Of a stretch of 57,745 bases of DNA, positions 2,774-16,897 are shown in pieces. The notes beneath the pieces are model-generated. The model worked only from the letters and a program-made list of their open reading frames with translations. It was not told the DNA's origin and did not search any database. The stretch comes from Helicobacteraceae bacterium. Lineage in GTDB: Bacteria > Campylobacterota > Campylobacteria > Campylobacterales > Sulfurimonadaceae. The DNA is taken from contig CANMJR010000017.1 in assembly GCA_947498025.1 (NCBI GenBank), forward strand, positions 1 to 57,745. The letters are read 5' to 3'. Each line of letters opens with the position of its first letter. Position 1 is the first letter of the stretch. A program made the position numbers and the translations under genes.

Positions 2774-4023
2774 TGAGCAATCAAACAGAAAAAGTACAAC
2801 AACTTCATGCTACAAACCACTATCTTTACTATCCTGATGAAAAAAATGTTCCCCCTTATTTAGCCTATGGTTTTAGACCAATATTTTTACTCTTAGCACC
2901 CTATTTGATACTCTCTATGTTTTTATGGGGTTTGGTTTTGGGCGGAGTGATACATATACCTTTTATGAACAATATTTTAGTTTGGCATGTGTATGAAATG
3001 ATTTTTGGAATCTTAACCGTAGGAACGATGGCATTTTTAACAACCGGACTTCCGGAACTTTTTCCGGGGACTGTTCCATTTATCGGTAAGCGTTTAAAAT
3101 ATACCATGATTTTATGGGTAGCAGGACGCTTTAGTTTTTGGTTTATTGATATTACGGGTATTTATTTAGCTGCTATACTTAATTTGTCTATGTTGGGCTG
3201 GCTTATTTGGTTTGCAAAAGATGCTGTTTTGGACAGATTACAAAGACATGCATCTTTGGGCTATGCTATGGTATCTCTTTTTATAATCGAAGGATGGTTT
3301 TATCTCTCTATGGCAGGCTACAGTGATACACCGCCCATGGAGATACTCAAAGTTGCACTTGGCGCAAGTGTAATATTAATACTTCTTGCCATGAGGCGTG
3401 TAAATATGGAAGCTATAAATGAGCTGATGGAAGATAAAGGCATTGATGATGTTTATATAGCGCGTCCGCCTTTAACAAATCTTGCCATATTTAGTGTGAT
3501 TGTTTTTACAACTATAGAATTTTTATATCCAAATAATTCAGCCCTTGGCTGGTTAGGATTAGCAACCGGTGCGGCTATTATTGCCATTACAGGCGACTAT
3601 ATTTTGAAAGATAAGTTCATCCTTAACCAACCGTATGTAATCTATTTGAGTTTAATTTTTATTCAGTTTGGACTCGGATATGCTCTGATAGGTTGGGCAA
3701 TTTTAAATGGAGATGTTCAGAATATTAGTAGTTTTAGACACTTCATAACAAGTGGCGGATATGGACTTACATATCTTATGGTTATGATTATTATCTCTTG
3801 GATACATACGGGTCGTCACTTGAGCGCAAATATATATACACATACAATGGTTGGTTTGATAATTTTAGCAACATTTATGAGGGCAAGTGTTCCCTTCTTT
3901 GAGGAATATTCAGCAGAGTTGTATCTGTATGCTTCTCTTATTTGGACAATACCTTTTATGCTCTATATAAAAATATTTTTCAAGTTTTTACTCTCACCTC
4001 GTGCAGATGGGATTAAAGGTTAA
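2773..4023 (+). CDS. nnrS: NnrS family haem/copper membrane protein
   Basis: A 416-residue polytopic membrane protein with about twelve hydrophobic segments and the NnrS family pattern: an N-terminal YGFRPIFLLLAPY stretch, then His- and Gly-rich helices (VWHVYEMIFG, TTGLPELFPG) and a late HTGRHLS. NnrS proteins are tied to nitric oxide stress and denitrification in other bacteria, and characterised members bind haem and copper. The family motif at residues 30-45 and the conserved histidines are present. It is the fourth gene of the operon and overlaps the ATPase stop by 1 nt. The FNR-type box at 203-216 fits expression under low oxygen or nitrogen-oxide exposure. Confidence 0.88.
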   Translation: MSNQTEKVQQLHATNHYLYYPDEKNVPPYLAYGFRPIFLLLAPYLILSMFLWGLVLGGVIHIPFMNNILVWHVYEMIFGILTVGTMAFLTTGLPELFPGTVPFIGKRLKYTMILWVAGRFSFWFIDITGIYLAAILNLSMLGWLIWFAKDAVLDRLQRHASLGYAMVSLFIIEGWFYLSMAGYSDTPPMEILKVALGASVILILLAMRRVNMEAINELMEDKGIDDVYIARPPLTNLAIFSVIVFTTIEFLYPNNSALGWLGLATGAAIIAITGDYILKDKFILNQPYVIYLSLIFIQFGLGYALIGWAILNGDVQNISSFRHFITSGGYGLTYLMVMIIISWIHTGRHLSANIYTHTMVGLIILATFMRASVPFFEEYSAELYLYASLIWTIPFMLYIKIFFKFLLSPRADGIKG

Positions 4024-13465: not shown

Positions 13466-14137
13466 TTATCTTATCCCTATATTTAGGGTAGAAAGTTTTA
13501 TTTTTGAAGCATCAAAACCTAATGATTTAGGTAACTCTTTTATAAATCTTAATTGCGGCATGTAGGGTTGTATAAAATATCTATTTTTGTACTCTTTTTT
13601 TTCTAAAAAATCTATCATTTCGTTAATATTTTCATAGCTTAAAAGTTCACTATGATAAGTCGTGCGAACTTCAAACTCTACTGGGGAGCCCAGCAACAAA
13701 TCGAGTGACTCTTCAAATTTACTGTAAAGTTTTGAGTGCGTTATTTCTAAAAACTTAAACTCTGTAGATTTAAAATCGAGTGCTACAAAATCAAGATATT
13801 GTAAAAGTGCATGTATAACTTCAGGCTTTGAGCCGTTTGTGTCAAGTTTGATTTTAAATCCCATTGATTTTATTTTTTGTGAAAGTTCCAAAATTTCTGG
13901 ATAGAGAGTAGGCTCTCCTCCGCAAAAAACTACACCTTCTAGTTTTCCCTTTCTAGTTTGTAGAAAAGTCAACACTTCTTCAATGCTTAAGCGCTTCTGG
14001 CTCTCATAAACCAAATCTAAGTTATGGCAATAAGAACAGAGCATGTTGCATCCGCTAAACCAAATAATACAGGCAACCGTATCCGGAAAATCTTGCAGAG
14101 TAAAAGGTGTAATATCACAAATATTGTAGTTATGCAT
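13466..14137 (-). CDS. nrdG: Anaerobic ribonucleotide reductase activase NrdG
   Basis: A 223-residue radical SAM enzyme from the chosen ATG. The cluster motif C-x3-C-x2-C is CNMLCSYC (Cys30, 34, 37 from this start), and FCGGEPTLYPE follows. It makes the glycyl radical on NrdD by cleaving S-adenosylmethionine. An earlier in-frame ATG at 14176 would overlap nrdD by 47 nt; the start at 14137 gives an 8-nt overlap and begins just before the family's conserved PFTLQDFP. Its target glycine here is probably on the separate peptide encoded at 16211-16354. The 3' end is 7 nt from an FNR-type box. Confidence 0.9.
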   Translation of the reverse strand: MHNYNICDITPFTLQDFPDTVACIIWFSGCNMLCSYCHNLDLVYESQKRLSIEEVLTFLQTRKGKLEGVVFCGGEPTLYPEILELSQKIKSMGFKIKLDTNGSKPEVIHALLQYLDFVALDFKSTEFKFLEITHSKLYSKFEESLDLLLGSPVEFEVRTTYHSELLSYENINEMIDFLEKKEYKNRYFIQPYMPQLRFIKELPKSLGFDASKIKLSTLNIGIR

Positions 14138-16214
14138 TATCTTCATCACACTTTGGGCAGAACTCATGCTCGCCATGCAGATAGCCGTGAATCGGACATA
14201 TGGAAAAGAGCGGAGTGACTGTAATATAGGGCAATCTATAATTTTCTATCACTGTTTTTACAAACTTCTTTGTCGCTTGTATGCTCGATATTTTTTCGCT
14301 CATGTAGAGATGTAAAACTGTTCCTCCCGTGTATTTGCACTGCAAATCATCTTGCAAGTCAAGCGCTTCAAAAGGGTCGGTTGTGTAGTTTACCGGTATC
14401 TGGGATGAATTTGTATAGTAAATATTTTGATCAAATCCTGCTTGAATAATATCTGAATATCTTTTTTTGTCCTCTTTTGCAAAACGGTAGGTCGTTCCCT
14501 CCGCCGGAGTAGCTTCAAGGTTGTAAAGGTTTCCGCTTTTTTCCTGATAGGAGATGATTTTTTCTCTCATAAAATCCAAGATTTCACCTGCAAATGTGAT
14601 GCCGCTTTGCGTTGTAATATCGTCCATGTCGTCGCTGAAATTTCTTATCATCTCATTTATTCCATTGACACCGATGGTTGAAAAGTGGTTGTTGAAATGG
14701 TGAAGATAGCGTTTTGTGTAGGGATAAAGCCCTTTATGAAAGAGCTCATTCACTACAACTCTCTTTTTCTCCAAAGTTGAGTAAGAGAGTTCCATAAGCT
14801 CTTCAATCCTTGCAAAAAGTGCTGTTTTGTCACCTTTATAGAGATAGCCAAGCCTTGCCATGTTGAGCGTCACAACTCCGATGCTTCCCGTCATCTCTGC
14901 ACTGCCGAAAAGCCCGCCACCGCGCTTGAGCAACTCTCTTAAATCTAACTGCAACCTGCAACACATGCTTCGCACATGCCCCGGCTTGTAAGCATGCGGA
15001 TTTTCACACAGATTACCATCGGCATCTCTTGTGTATTGACTCCCTATAAAATTCTGAAAATAGGCACTTCCTATTTTTGCCGTGTTTTCAAATAAAATAT
15101 CCGTATTTTCTCCATCAAAGTCAAACTCCTCAGTTATATTTACAGTCGGAATCGGAAAGGTAAAAGGCTGACCGCTTGCATCTCCCTCTGTTAGAATCTC
15201 AAAAAAGGCTTTATTAATCTGTTTCATTTCATGATAAAAATGTTTGTAGGTTAAATCGGTTAATGAGGTAACTTTCTCATCTCTCTTTTTTGCAGCTTCC
15301 AGCAGCTCTTCGTCATTTATTCCATGTAAAAGATGTTTTTGATTTTTTGTCGGGATCTGCTCTTTTAAATCGCTCGGCACTGTCCAATCAATCGTTACAT
15401 TCGTAAATGGACTTTGTCCCCATCTTGAGGGAACATTCAGGTTGTAAACAAAACCTTTGAGCGCTTTTTTTATCTCATCTTCGCTCAGCTTATCTTTAAA
15501 CAGATAGGGTGCAAGATAGGTGTCAAAACTGCTGAACGCTTGCGCTCCCGCCCACTCACTCTGCAGAATTCCCAAAAAGTTTACCATCTGCCCTAACGCT
15601 TCTCTAAAATGGCTTGGTGCAGTACTCTCAACTCTTCCTCGCACTCCGTTGAAACCCTCATCAAGAAGAACTCGCAAACTCCATCCGGCACAATACCCGC
15701 TTAAATTGTCAAGGTCATGGATGTGAATATCGCCGTTTCTATGGGCGTAACCTTCATCGCTTGAATAGACCTTGTCCAACCAGTAGTTTGCAACAACTTT
15801 TCCTGCAAGGTTATTTACAAGTCCTGCATTTGAGTAGCTGATATTTGCATTTGCGTTTATCCTCCAATCCTCTTTGTGGATGTACTCTTCAACACTTTGA
15901 GTAGAATTTATAAAGGTAGTAGAATTTAGGTTGCCGCAGAATTCCTCTCTTTGAAGTTTATGCAAGAATCTGTAGGTGATAAAAGATTTCATCACATTGA
16001 AGTGCCCGAATTTAAAGAGCTCCTTCTCTATGATGTCCTGCACCAACTCAACTTCAACTTTTTCAAGCTTTGAAATATATTCGATTGTATTTAGAAAAAC
16101 ATTCTCATCATAAAGTTCATTCACGCTTTCATACGCTTTTTTTATGGCATCTTCAATTTTATAGGAGTAAAAATTCTCCTGTGAACCGTCTCTTTTTAAA
16201 ATCAGAAAATTCAT
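14130..16214 (-). CDS. nrdD: Anaerobic ribonucleoside-triphosphate reductase NrdD lacking its glycyl-radical tail
   Basis: A 694-residue class III reductase body that makes deoxyribonucleotides without oxygen. An ATP-cone occupies about residues 3-90. The barrel has candidate catalytic cysteines in GYCAGW (Cys175) and SMCCRLQ (Cys418/419). The C-terminal zinc finger reads CPIHG (Cys673) and CPKC (Cys686, Cys689). In ordinary NrdD a glycyl-radical domain follows this finger at once. Here the protein stops five residues after it, and no Arg-x-x-Gly-Tyr segment exists in the chain. That missing domain is encoded by the small gene directly upstream, joined by an ATGA overlap. NrdG follows with an 8-nt overlap. 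Confidence 0.93.
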   Translation of the reverse strand: MNFLILKRDGSQENFYSYKIEDAIKKAYESVNELYDENVFLNTIEYISKLEKVEVELVQDIIEKELFKFGHFNVMKSFITYRFLHKLQREEFCGNLNSTTFINSTQSVEEYIHKEDWRINANANISYSNAGLVNNLAGKVVANYWLDKVYSSDEGYAHRNGDIHIHDLDNLSGYCAGWSLRVLLDEGFNGVRGRVESTAPSHFREALGQMVNFLGILQSEWAGAQAFSSFDTYLAPYLFKDKLSEDEIKKALKGFVYNLNVPSRWGQSPFTNVTIDWTVPSDLKEQIPTKNQKHLLHGINDEELLEAAKKRDEKVTSLTDLTYKHFYHEMKQINKAFFEILTEGDASGQPFTFPIPTVNITEEFDFDGENTDILFENTAKIGSAYFQNFIGSQYTRDADGNLCENPHAYKPGHVRSMCCRLQLDLRELLKRGGGLFGSAEMTGSIGVVTLNMARLGYLYKGDKTALFARIEELMELSYSTLEKKRVVVNELFHKGLYPYTKRYLHHFNNHFSTIGVNGINEMIRNFSDDMDDITTQSGITFAGEILDFMREKIISYQEKSGNLYNLEATPAEGTTYRFAKEDKKRYSDIIQAGFDQNIYYTNSSQIPVNYTTDPFEALDLQDDLQCKYTGGTVLHLYMSEKISSIQATKKFVKTVIENYRLPYITVTPLFSICPIHGYLHGEHEFCPKCDEDNA

Positions 16215-16354
16215 TTATCGGCCGTTTTTTGTTCTAAAAAATATTTTCTCTCCCTATGTTCACCTAGTTTGCCGATGTTAAAACTCTCTATTGGTCTATG
16301 GTAGCCCATCACTCTTGTATAAATAATGCATCTTGTTCTATTTTCTGTTTTCAT
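16211..16354 (-). CDS. Detached glycyl-radical domain of anaerobic ribonucleotide reductase
   Basis: A 47-residue protein, ATG at 16354-16352, TGA at 16213-16211. Residues 12-32 contain YTRVMGYHRPIESFNIGK, the glycyl-radical signature of class III reductases. Gly17 is the expected radical site, followed by the usual Tyr, Arg-Pro, an Asn, and an Arg/Glu-rich tail (GEHRERKYF). A good AGAAGGA ribosome site lies 7 nt upstream. The stop overlaps the nrdD start as ATGA, which implies coupled translation and roughly equal amounts. The order is permuted: the piece that normally ends NrdD is encoded before it. It should assemble with NrdD like a radical cofactor subunit and be activated by NrdG, by analogy to GrcA/YfiD for pyruvate formate-lyase. 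Confidence 0.85.
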   Translation of the reverse strand: MKTENRTRCIIYTRVMGYHRPIESFNIGKLGEHRERKYFLEQKTADK

Positions 16355-16371
16355 AATTTAATCCTTCTAAT

Positions 16372-16389: not shown

Positions 16390-16418
16390 TTTGAAATTTT
16401 AGACAAAAACAAATTATA

Positions 16419-16436
16419 TACGACTTAAGAGTAGTA
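16419..16436. promoter_or_regulatory. Palindromic operator 2, nrd/Rrf2 divergent region
   Basis: TACGACT-TAAG-AGTAGTA is a 7-4-7 palindrome with one mismatch, flanked on both sides by TATA so that symmetry extends over 26 bp. Its centre lies 47 bp from that of operator 1. It is about 60 bp upstream of the Rrf2 start and could control both the nrd operon and the regulator itself. Confidence 0.55.
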
Positions 16437-16498
16437 TATAATCTAACTTAAAAGAAATTACATGTAGAATGTCAAAAAATTATATTCGGATATATGAA

Positions 16499-16897
16499 AT
16501 GGTATTTAGTACAACGACGCAATACGCTCTAAAAATTTTAGCCTATTTAAATGAACATAAAGAGGGGCTTTGCAGCGCAAAAACCCTCTCTGAGGAGCTT
16601 GATATTCCATACAAATATCTTACAAAAATTATGACAAAGTTTACAAAAAATGAAATGATAGAGTCGGTACAGGGGCGATACGGTGGATTTAAACTTATAG
16701 ACTCAAAAATAATAACCATATATGACATTTTAAAGTTATGCGATGGAGATAGTGCGAAAGATTGTATTATCGGAAAAATAGAGTGTAATGAGAGAAAAAG
16801 ATGCCACTACCACGACGCTTGGCAAAAGCCGAGAGAGTCTATTAAAAAAGATTTTTTAGATGCTGATTTAAAGGGCTGCATCTCCAAAGAATCCTAA
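16499..16897 (+). CDS. Rrf2-family Fe-S transcription regulator (NsrR/IscR-like)
   Basis: A 132-residue winged-helix regulator. It begins MVFSTTTQYALKIL, the usual Rrf2 opening, and carries a recognition-helix region with YLTKIMTKF and GRYGGFKL. Three cysteines, Cys89, Cys96 and Cys102 (C-x6-C-x5-C), match the Fe-S cluster spacing of NsrR and IscR. The longer ORF start at 16469 adds ten residues without family similarity; the ATG at 16499 has a GGA eight nt upstream. It is divergent from the nrd operon, and two matching palindromes lie between. Control of anaerobic deoxynucleotide synthesis by nitric oxide, oxygen or cluster status is an inference. Confidence 0.85.
   Translation: MVFSTTTQYALKILAYLNEHKEGLCSAKTLSEELDIPYKYLTKIMTKFTKNEMIESVQGRYGGFKLIDSKIITIYDILKLCDGDSAKDCIIGKIECNERKRCHYHDAWQKPRESIKKDFLDADLKGCISKES

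Follow-up and report, generated by a model that had tools for sequence, protein, structure and literature searches.

In this study, we analyzed a stretch of 57,745 nucleotides (hereafter the window; positions 1 to 57,745 of the forward strand of contig CANMJR010000017.1, GenBank assembly GCA_947498025.1) from a Helicobacteraceae bacterium of the Campylobacterota, with a focus on its genes for an anaerobic, class III ribonucleotide reductase (RNR). The catalytic protein of this enzyme, NrdD, is encoded without the C-terminal glycyl-radical loop, and the loop lies on a peptide of 47 residues encoded directly upstream. Our analyses support the view that this peptide is a separately made glycyl-radical subunit of NrdD, as had been suggested in a first-pass annotation made from the sequence alone. 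Profile coverage, conservation across phyla, an own start codon and ribosome site and purifying selection argue for such a subunit, and unlinked and permuted gene orders together with prophage and viral copies support it further. It is very probable that the locus encodes a two-chain class III RNR whose radical subunit is exchangeable and is also supplied by phages; that phages and prophages carry the peptide alone was not foreseen in the first-pass annotation.

The three genes are arranged on the minus strand in the order 47-codon open reading frame (ORF; 16211-16354), nrdD (14130-16214) and nrdG (13466-14137). The peptide ORF and nrdD occupy different frames and are joined by an ATGA overlap (16211-16214), in which the TGA stop of the peptide meets the ATG start of nrdD. 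An AAGGA ribosome site (16362-16366) precedes the peptide ATG by 7 nt, and the Gly17 codon, predicted to encode the radical glycine, lies at 16304-16306 inside the motif YTRVMGYHRP. The NrdD body of 694 residues carries an ATP-cone, the catalytic barrel with the finger-loop motif SMCCRL (14952-14969), which is of the double-cysteine type (motif class after PMC9669993; papers are cited here and below from excerpts of their text), and a zinc finger C673xxH676...C686xxC689 plus the next Asp (14145-14198), the equivalent Cys and His residues of which are invariant in 46 aligned rows. The body terminates as ...CPKCDEDNA, five residues beyond the last zinc-finger Cys, and contains no RVxGY motif. 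Sequence and ORFs thus bear out what the first-pass annotation had described, namely the early end of NrdD without a radical motif and the upstream ORF with its motif, Gly17, ribosome site and ATGA junction. The nrdG product, a radical-SAM (S-adenosylmethionine) activase of 223 residues counted from MHNYN, overlaps the end of nrdD, contains CxxxCxxC and matches the NCBIfam family TIGR02495 (NrdG2) at 180 bits against a cut-off of 131.

A comparison of the peptide with the NRDD profile had been proposed as a check on its assignment, and the peptide matched the glycyl segment. On the Pfam NRDD profile the body covers positions 2-530 of 562 (530 bits, over the cut-off) and the peptide positions 530-562 (23.8 bits, E 2e-5, slightly short of the cut-off of 26.2); on NF006126 of NCBIfam the body covers positions 5-650 of 684 (1058 bits) and the peptide 650-682. 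Since body and peptide together span the NRDD profile once, the peptide match is not due to chance, and since both profiles break at the same place, the product is cut between the zinc finger and the glycyl loop. The body also matches the Pfam ATP-cone at 54 bits, over the cut-off, and no Pfam family other than NRDD, including PF01228 (Gly_radical), matched the peptide at E<=1. A fused, full-length nrdD elsewhere in the genome, which the first-pass annotation had named as evidence against a split, was not found in an NRDD scan of the whole genome (99.8% complete), which returned two places, the body and the peptide. The same genome yielded no match to the Gly_radical domain of pyruvate formate-lyase (PFL) and GrcA, PF01228, and it contains one further RNR large subunit, NrdA-like by eye.

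The window enzyme thus resembles the class III NrdD proteins of Prevotella copri, Thermotoga maritima and phage T4 in its barrel, finger-loop cysteine, C-terminal zinc finger and neighboring NrdG, and that of P. copri in its ATP-cone as well; the peptide corresponds to their C-terminal glycyl-radical loop. Unlike in those enzymes, the loop stands on a second chain, encoded by a separate upstream ORF, and the zinc finger is left on the body. In P. copri NrdD, residues 676-739 hold the zinc site and Gly711 in one chain (PMC11226230).

Distribution, conservation and ancestry of the peptide

Within the genus, NRDD was matched in 87 of 135 genomes, the window's own included, and the DNA was read in 41 distinct genomes of these 87 (the 30 best-scoring other genomes and 12 more, one of them a repeat). 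YTRVMGYHRP was found on its own ORF in 40 of the 41; no peptide was seen in the remaining one, in which the body begins at a contig edge, and none of the 41 has a fused NrdD. Five genomes (G027, G132, G089, G055 and G073) had looked fused, with one long frame, and the DNA shows stop codons between the two ORFs in all five. Two observations concern the body rather than the peptide: the single-contig genome G117 (L325) has an intact peptide ORF and a body broken into two frames, and six relatives (L011, L017, L020, L021, L023 and L030) have a body that terminates as ...AEGNLALA ahead of the peptide gene, which resembles the insertion of a mobile repeat.

The survey of Campylobacterota proposed in the first-pass annotation revealed that the same split is widespread. 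A search with a 12-row peptide alignment detected the peptide segment in 186 of 397 genomes and 42 of 68 genera, each copy among the matches listed being an open frame of 51-90 residues; the named members of the phylum identify it as Campylobacterota. A scan of named genomes gave at least 583 confirmed places, 80 of which were kept, with Sulfurimonas, Sulfurovum, Sulfurospirillum, Arcobacter, Helicobacter and Nitratiruptor among those listed, and with Flavobacterium, Algoriphagus, Sphingobacterium and others from the Bacteroidota. In the phylum of Flavobacterium antarcticum, 17 of 296 genomes matched: eight at 99 bits or more in frames of 55-92 residues, eight at 41-51 bits inside frames of 714-805 residues, and one weakly. 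Much of Campylobacterota and portions of Bacteroidota and Proteobacteria have the loop-less reductase, and the split is apparently found across whole bacterial groups. A genome titled Gastranaerophilales (G505, L102) has a fused NrdD and, on another contig that is possibly stray, a split-type peptide.

Among 72,556 plasmids there were 28 matches. On pHG1 of Cupriavidus necator H16 (L143) a body of 676 residues is followed by a peptide of 66 residues and then by nrdG; NrdD is reportedly of about 76 kDa in the original paper on the H16 nrdDG genes, a size that would suit the body without the peptide. Plasmid-borne split genes also occur in Bradyrhizobium ottawaense, Sulfuricurvum kujiense and C. 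metallidurans, and an Acidithiobacillus plasmid carries the fused form. RefSeq names the body 'ribonucleoside triphosphate reductase' and the peptide 'nrdD' in three annotated split records; the pHG1 pair is the same split, annotated, in a record silent on the role of the subunit.

The first-pass annotation had called the gene order permuted relative to the fused enzyme, and this holds beyond that comparison. The parsed set comprised 80 named-genome loci, five plasmid records and one virus record and gave 87 peptide rows, two of them from a single locus: in 76 the peptide follows the body, in three it precedes it, in two it is fused and in six no body is in view. The window order is therefore permuted also with respect to 76 of the 79 linked split rows, in which the peptide follows nrdD, and the three upstream rows (L063-L065) are the nearest relatives of the window. 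In 84 split rows, whose starts were picked to favor ribosome-site-like sequence, the start codon is ATG in 83 and GTG in one, and AGGA, GGAG or GAGG precedes it in 71 of 71 rows not titled Bacteroidota and in 0 of 13 so titled.

The peptide is under purifying selection. Over 33 codons round the glycine in the 31 loci found via the body, mean pS (synonymous differences per site) was 0.609 and mean pN (nonsynonymous differences per site) 0.061, a pN/pS of 0.10, and two shifted frames of the same DNA gave values of about 2; the quoted estimate uses these 31 loci only and not the search pattern that fixes the motif. In 99 distinct host peptides (identical sequences removed, selection required GYH, as for the 54 distinct viral peptides below), numbered from the radical glycine, R-11, C-8, T-4, R-3, V-2, M-1, G0, Y+1, H+2, R+3 and P+4 are 100% conserved, as are S+7, F+8, N+9, G+11, K+12, E+15, R+19 and F+22. 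L002, a second copy of the window's locus, was left out of the counts, L267 out of the stand-alone counts, and nine of 125 far ORFs out of the control set. The cysteine eight residues before the glycine, Cys9 of the window peptide, is invariant in the 99 host and 54 viral peptides; alignments place no equivalent in P. copri or T. maritima NrdD, and other fused NrdDs have one. Could Cys9 be a zinc ligand across the chains, or have a redox role?

To examine the ancestry of the split, 60 bodies were chosen by hand, trimmed of the glycyl segment and placed in a quick maximum-likelihood tree, which carries a long-branch warning near its root; a search of 58 relatives of a PVC (Planctomycetes-Verrucomicrobia-Chlamydiae) genome returned, apart from that genome, one fused NrdD, which was included. 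A single clade, with a Shimodaira-Hasegawa-like approximate likelihood-ratio test (SH-aLRT) support of 99, unites 51 split enzymes and two fused ones, from Arcticibacter (L094) and Acidithiobacillus (L147), and the other seven fused enzymes fall outside it. The split or fused label changes three times on the tree against 8.5 times in shuffles, and 0 of 500 shuffles were as low. L094 is nested inside Bacteroidota and hence looks like a re-fusion; L147 may be either a re-fusion or the ancestral state. The window body groups with L064 and L065 and not with the five remaining members of its genus that were included. This placement suggests gene transfer into this lineage, where the peptide would have come to stand in front of nrdD. 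The body end of another genus genome, G124 (L329), resembles that of the window.

Unlinked, extra and viral copies

In some genomes the peptide gene is unlinked from the body and must therefore act in trans. The peptide and nrdG lie about 95 kb from the body in G209 and about 5 kb from it, with other genes between, in G504 (L196), and in the draft genome G506 peptide and body stand on different contigs. In addition, 20 of the 186 matching Campylobacterota genomes have two or three peptide matches. Six of these were inspected and have a single body, with three peptides in G209 and G339 and with two in G302, G330, G360 and G458. Five of them have an extra copy that adjoins phage genes: G209 has a holin there, G339 an Rz-like spanin and an endolysin, G302 a transposition protein together with Mu Gam and GemA, G330 an endolysin and G458 an integrase. 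In G360 the extra copy (L188, C1:1739500-1745500), far from the single body, has no recognized phage neighbor. Two operons are present in G350, and the body of one of them is broken; in G112 the NRDD profile shows a single place and the extra peptide matches are unconfirmed.

A scan of 2.9 million IMG/VR contigs returned 137 confirmed relatives of the peptide, 80 of which were kept. In 79 of these 80 viral stretches, which extend at most 6 kb to each side, less at contig ends, and in some of which the peptide stands at a contig end, the peptide occurs without a body or nrdG; one (L267) has both. The 79 stand-alone loci form 65 clusters by shared DNA. Whole records, which may be fragments, were searched for 50 of the 80: 49 match NRDD and one of them, that of L267, has a body; the record of L213 has no NRDD match, and that of L228 has an extra 15-bit match at profile positions 503-529. 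The first viral scan had partly used the glycine motif and was repeated with a pattern lying solely downstream of it. In the 28 sequences so obtained, one of them the contig with a body, RVMGY or RCMGY occurs in 27 and GYHRP in all 28; in the one that departs, the stretch leading up to the glycine is altered. Among the 54 distinct viral peptides, neither the glycine nor its flanks vary.

That the contigs are viral is borne out by their other ORFs: matches next to the peptide include endolysins and portal, terminase, baseplate and single-strand binding proteins, and those at greater distance include head, tail and helicase families. The window peptide and all seven viral peptides scanned match phrog_4132, a PHROGs family of unknown function, which thereby gains a likely function. 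The viral peptide gene is often part of the lysis region, where genes for holin, spanin or endolysin flank it on one or both sides (for example, L231, L238, L241 and L223); this neighborhood is a tendency only, as read from the 25 PHROG families listed of 147 and the 25 listed of 239, with some genes named by eye. Such a site would make the radical subunit a late phage gene. Searches of 50,697 isolate phage records with the peptide matched only ANMV-1, with another NrdD type, and one fused NrdD with NrdG. ANMV-1, a virus of an uncultured archaeon (L148), has a short ORF (3192-3626) annotated as anaerobic ribonucleoside triphosphate reductase with CPKC and a radical loop, and no body is annotated in the 7 kb shown; it is a stand-alone radical domain of another NrdD type.

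Proposed mechanism and rival explanations

From the gene anatomy, homology, conservation and distribution and from the unlinked and prophage copies, we infer docking, radical formation, exchange and phage benefit as follows. The NrdD body would provide nucleotide binding, the catalytic barrel and the zinc finger, and the 47-residue peptide the radical glycine. NrdG would charge Gly17 either on the free peptide or once it is docked, the peptide would occupy the vacant C-terminal place of the body, and the radical would move from Gly17 to a finger-loop cysteine, C418 or C419. In class III enzymes, the glycyl radical made by NrdG gives rise to a thiyl radical on the finger loop (PMC9531940; PMC9669993), and in the case of YfiD robust charging requires the cut partner (PMC8683613). 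Oxygen cleaves class III enzymes at the glycyl radical (PMC3019208); with a free peptide, the loss would thus be limited to the peptide. With no covalent bond to the body, a peptide cut by oxygen could in principle be swapped for a fresh one and the 694-residue body would not have to be remade. Such replacement after oxygen damage was proposed in the first-pass annotation and would fit the stand-alone extra copies, and the likeliest advantage is this limited loss, for bacteria exposed to some oxygen and for phages with an urgent need of DNA precursors. Temperate phages would bring the peptide alone and use the body and activase of the host. We consider it slightly more probable than the contrary that a diffusible, interchangeable radical peptide serves an essential enzyme and that widespread temperate phages and other viruses bring just this peptide (phrog_4132), by which the anaerobic synthesis of DNA precursors would be kept up, raised or redirected in hosts whose enzyme is split.

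A C. necator H16 strain without pHG1 has a defect that is countered by vitamin B12 (PMC2864759). The H16 locus being of the split kind, this defect implies that a split locus works in vivo.

Two relatives were compared with known NrdD proteins. One, the fused L094, can be aligned over its full length with P. copri NrdD, and its glycine falls on the ITGYL motif. The ITGYL glycine is residue 715 by count; as the construct exceeds the numbering of PMC11226230 by four residues, this glycine is taken as the radical Gly711 of that paper. An alignment with the peptides as separate rows was not used, as the peptides misaligned onto the body. An AlphaFold model of a relative with both ORFs in one frame, in which Gln took the place of the two TAA stops, was built with 46 chosen body rows and reached a mean pLDDT (predicted local distance difference test) of 72.8. 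The top match in VIA-align was T4 NrdD (1h7b; Z 26.5, root-mean-square deviation 3.3, 471 aligned, model 115-740 on 26-587), with rows within 1 Z being tied. The end points of this alignment would place Gly733 of the model near 580, the radical glycine of T4 NrdD according to a paper title, which is only suggestive of a match.

Four observations weigh against an exchangeable radical subunit that phages supply. Many genomes of the genus and the phylum show no match; the fused L094 and L147 within the split clade show that separation is not indispensable; pLDDT in the read-through model is below 50 from residue 733, the glycine, onward, so docking is unsupported by it; and no close stand-alone copy was found in the isolate phage records by the peptide searches, so the phage case rests on the prophages and the IMG/VR contigs. 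The strongest alternative, which we regard as possible and clearly the less probable account, is an obligate two-chain enzyme that arose by neutral gene fission, its peptide bound permanently and serving neither repair nor phage supply. The usual close linkage would suit it, as coupling by ATGA or a short gap would match the amounts of peptide and nrdD product, but extra unlinked peptide genes beside a single body are hard to explain without interchangeability, and so are the peptide-only viral loci. More doubtful is a phage peptide acting as a decoy or poison that would tie up the body or NrdG of the host and so stop it from making DNA precursors. Phage genes for the peptide alone, several of them in or beside the lysis genes of a late region, would suit a decoy; however, viral peptides keep the glycine and the residues around it just as strictly as host peptides do, and a decoy would not need the glycine.

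The two remaining alternatives deny that there is a second subunit, and we give both next to no credence. Read-through of a stop codon or frameshifting would yield a fused NrdD and make the split only apparent, as might be imagined for those genus members in which one to three stop codons separate two ORFs of the same frame. In the window, gene order and frames refute it, the peptide gene lying upstream in another frame; in other genomes the peptide gene is unlinked, and the peptide has its own start and, in the rows not titled Bacteroidota, its own ribosome-site-like sequence throughout. The peptide ORF might instead be a decayed remnant beside a body that works without a glycyl radical, and its Pfam score just under the curated cut-off could be taken in that sense, yet the pN/pS of 0.10 leads us to reject a pseudogene, and the invariant core and presence across phyla speak against it as well. 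A two-chain RNR with an exchangeable radical peptide is accordingly the reading we favor.

Known systems and surroundings of the operon

The closest functional parallel is GrcA/YfiD together with Y06I of phage T4, in which a small free protein delivers a glycyl-radical domain to a larger enzyme and a phage copy exists too (PMC8683613). The families differ, as the window peptide has no PF01228 match, and so does the dependence: YfiD is a back-up for an enzyme that carries a radical domain itself, whereas the window body ends at profile position 530 of 562 and has none, so the peptide is the only source. In the excerpted text of PMC8683613, only PFL spare parts are validated, and the existence of others is speculated. 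Other RNR polypeptides are also made in pieces, as is class II NrdJ of Pseudomonas aeruginosa; phage Aeh1 has a two-piece NrdA, and phage nrdD genes with interruptions are known (PMC3653736), those phage cuts being due to introns, inteins or homing endonucleases, or unexplained (phiAS4 nrdD, in three pieces). None of these split RNRs is described, in the excerpts, as detaching the radical glycine as an interchangeable peptide. For the window, a split by an intein, intron or homing endonuclease does not fit the permuted order, the ATGA overlap and the lack of any element between the parts. The genome paper of C. metallidurans gives NrdDG as Rmet_5137 and Rmet_5139, with Rmet_5138 unmentioned in the excerpts (PMC2864759); Rmet_5138 would be the peptide. 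Two papers list NrdD as an auxiliary gene of prophages or of archaeal viruses, and their excerpts do not mention a detached peptide (PMC12013270; PMC9894754).

What was already known, then, are split RNRs of other kinds, phage nrdD genes cut by introns or inteins, the PFL spare part and the annotation of the peptide as 'nrdD'. A literature search, which left most subscription papers outside, found no description of a detached NrdD radical subunit or of phages carrying it alone. The class III RNRs of the cited papers have the radical loop within the catalytic chain, and the validated free radical domains are PFL back-ups (PMC8683613, as excerpted). With a peptide short enough for synthesis, radical installation, docking and oxygen repair become open to study. 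The viral copies suggest that phages steer the DNA-precursor supply of their hosts with about 50 residues, and a small gene beside a truncated-looking nrdD would be the active center and not noise.

Two further features lie upstream of the operon. An inverted repeat, TTATATAC-N12-GTATATAA, at 16414-16441 stands between the split RNR operon and a divergent gene and probably serves as the operator of the former; L063 and L064 retain the core of the repeat, which was not found in L065. The divergent gene (16469-16897, plus strand) encodes an Rrf2-family regulator (Pfam Rrf2, 83 bits). In two loci from genomes of the order, a NifU-like iron-sulfur scaffold gene lies between the peptide and the body (L192:3085-3588 and L198:3426-3914) and may serve NrdG.

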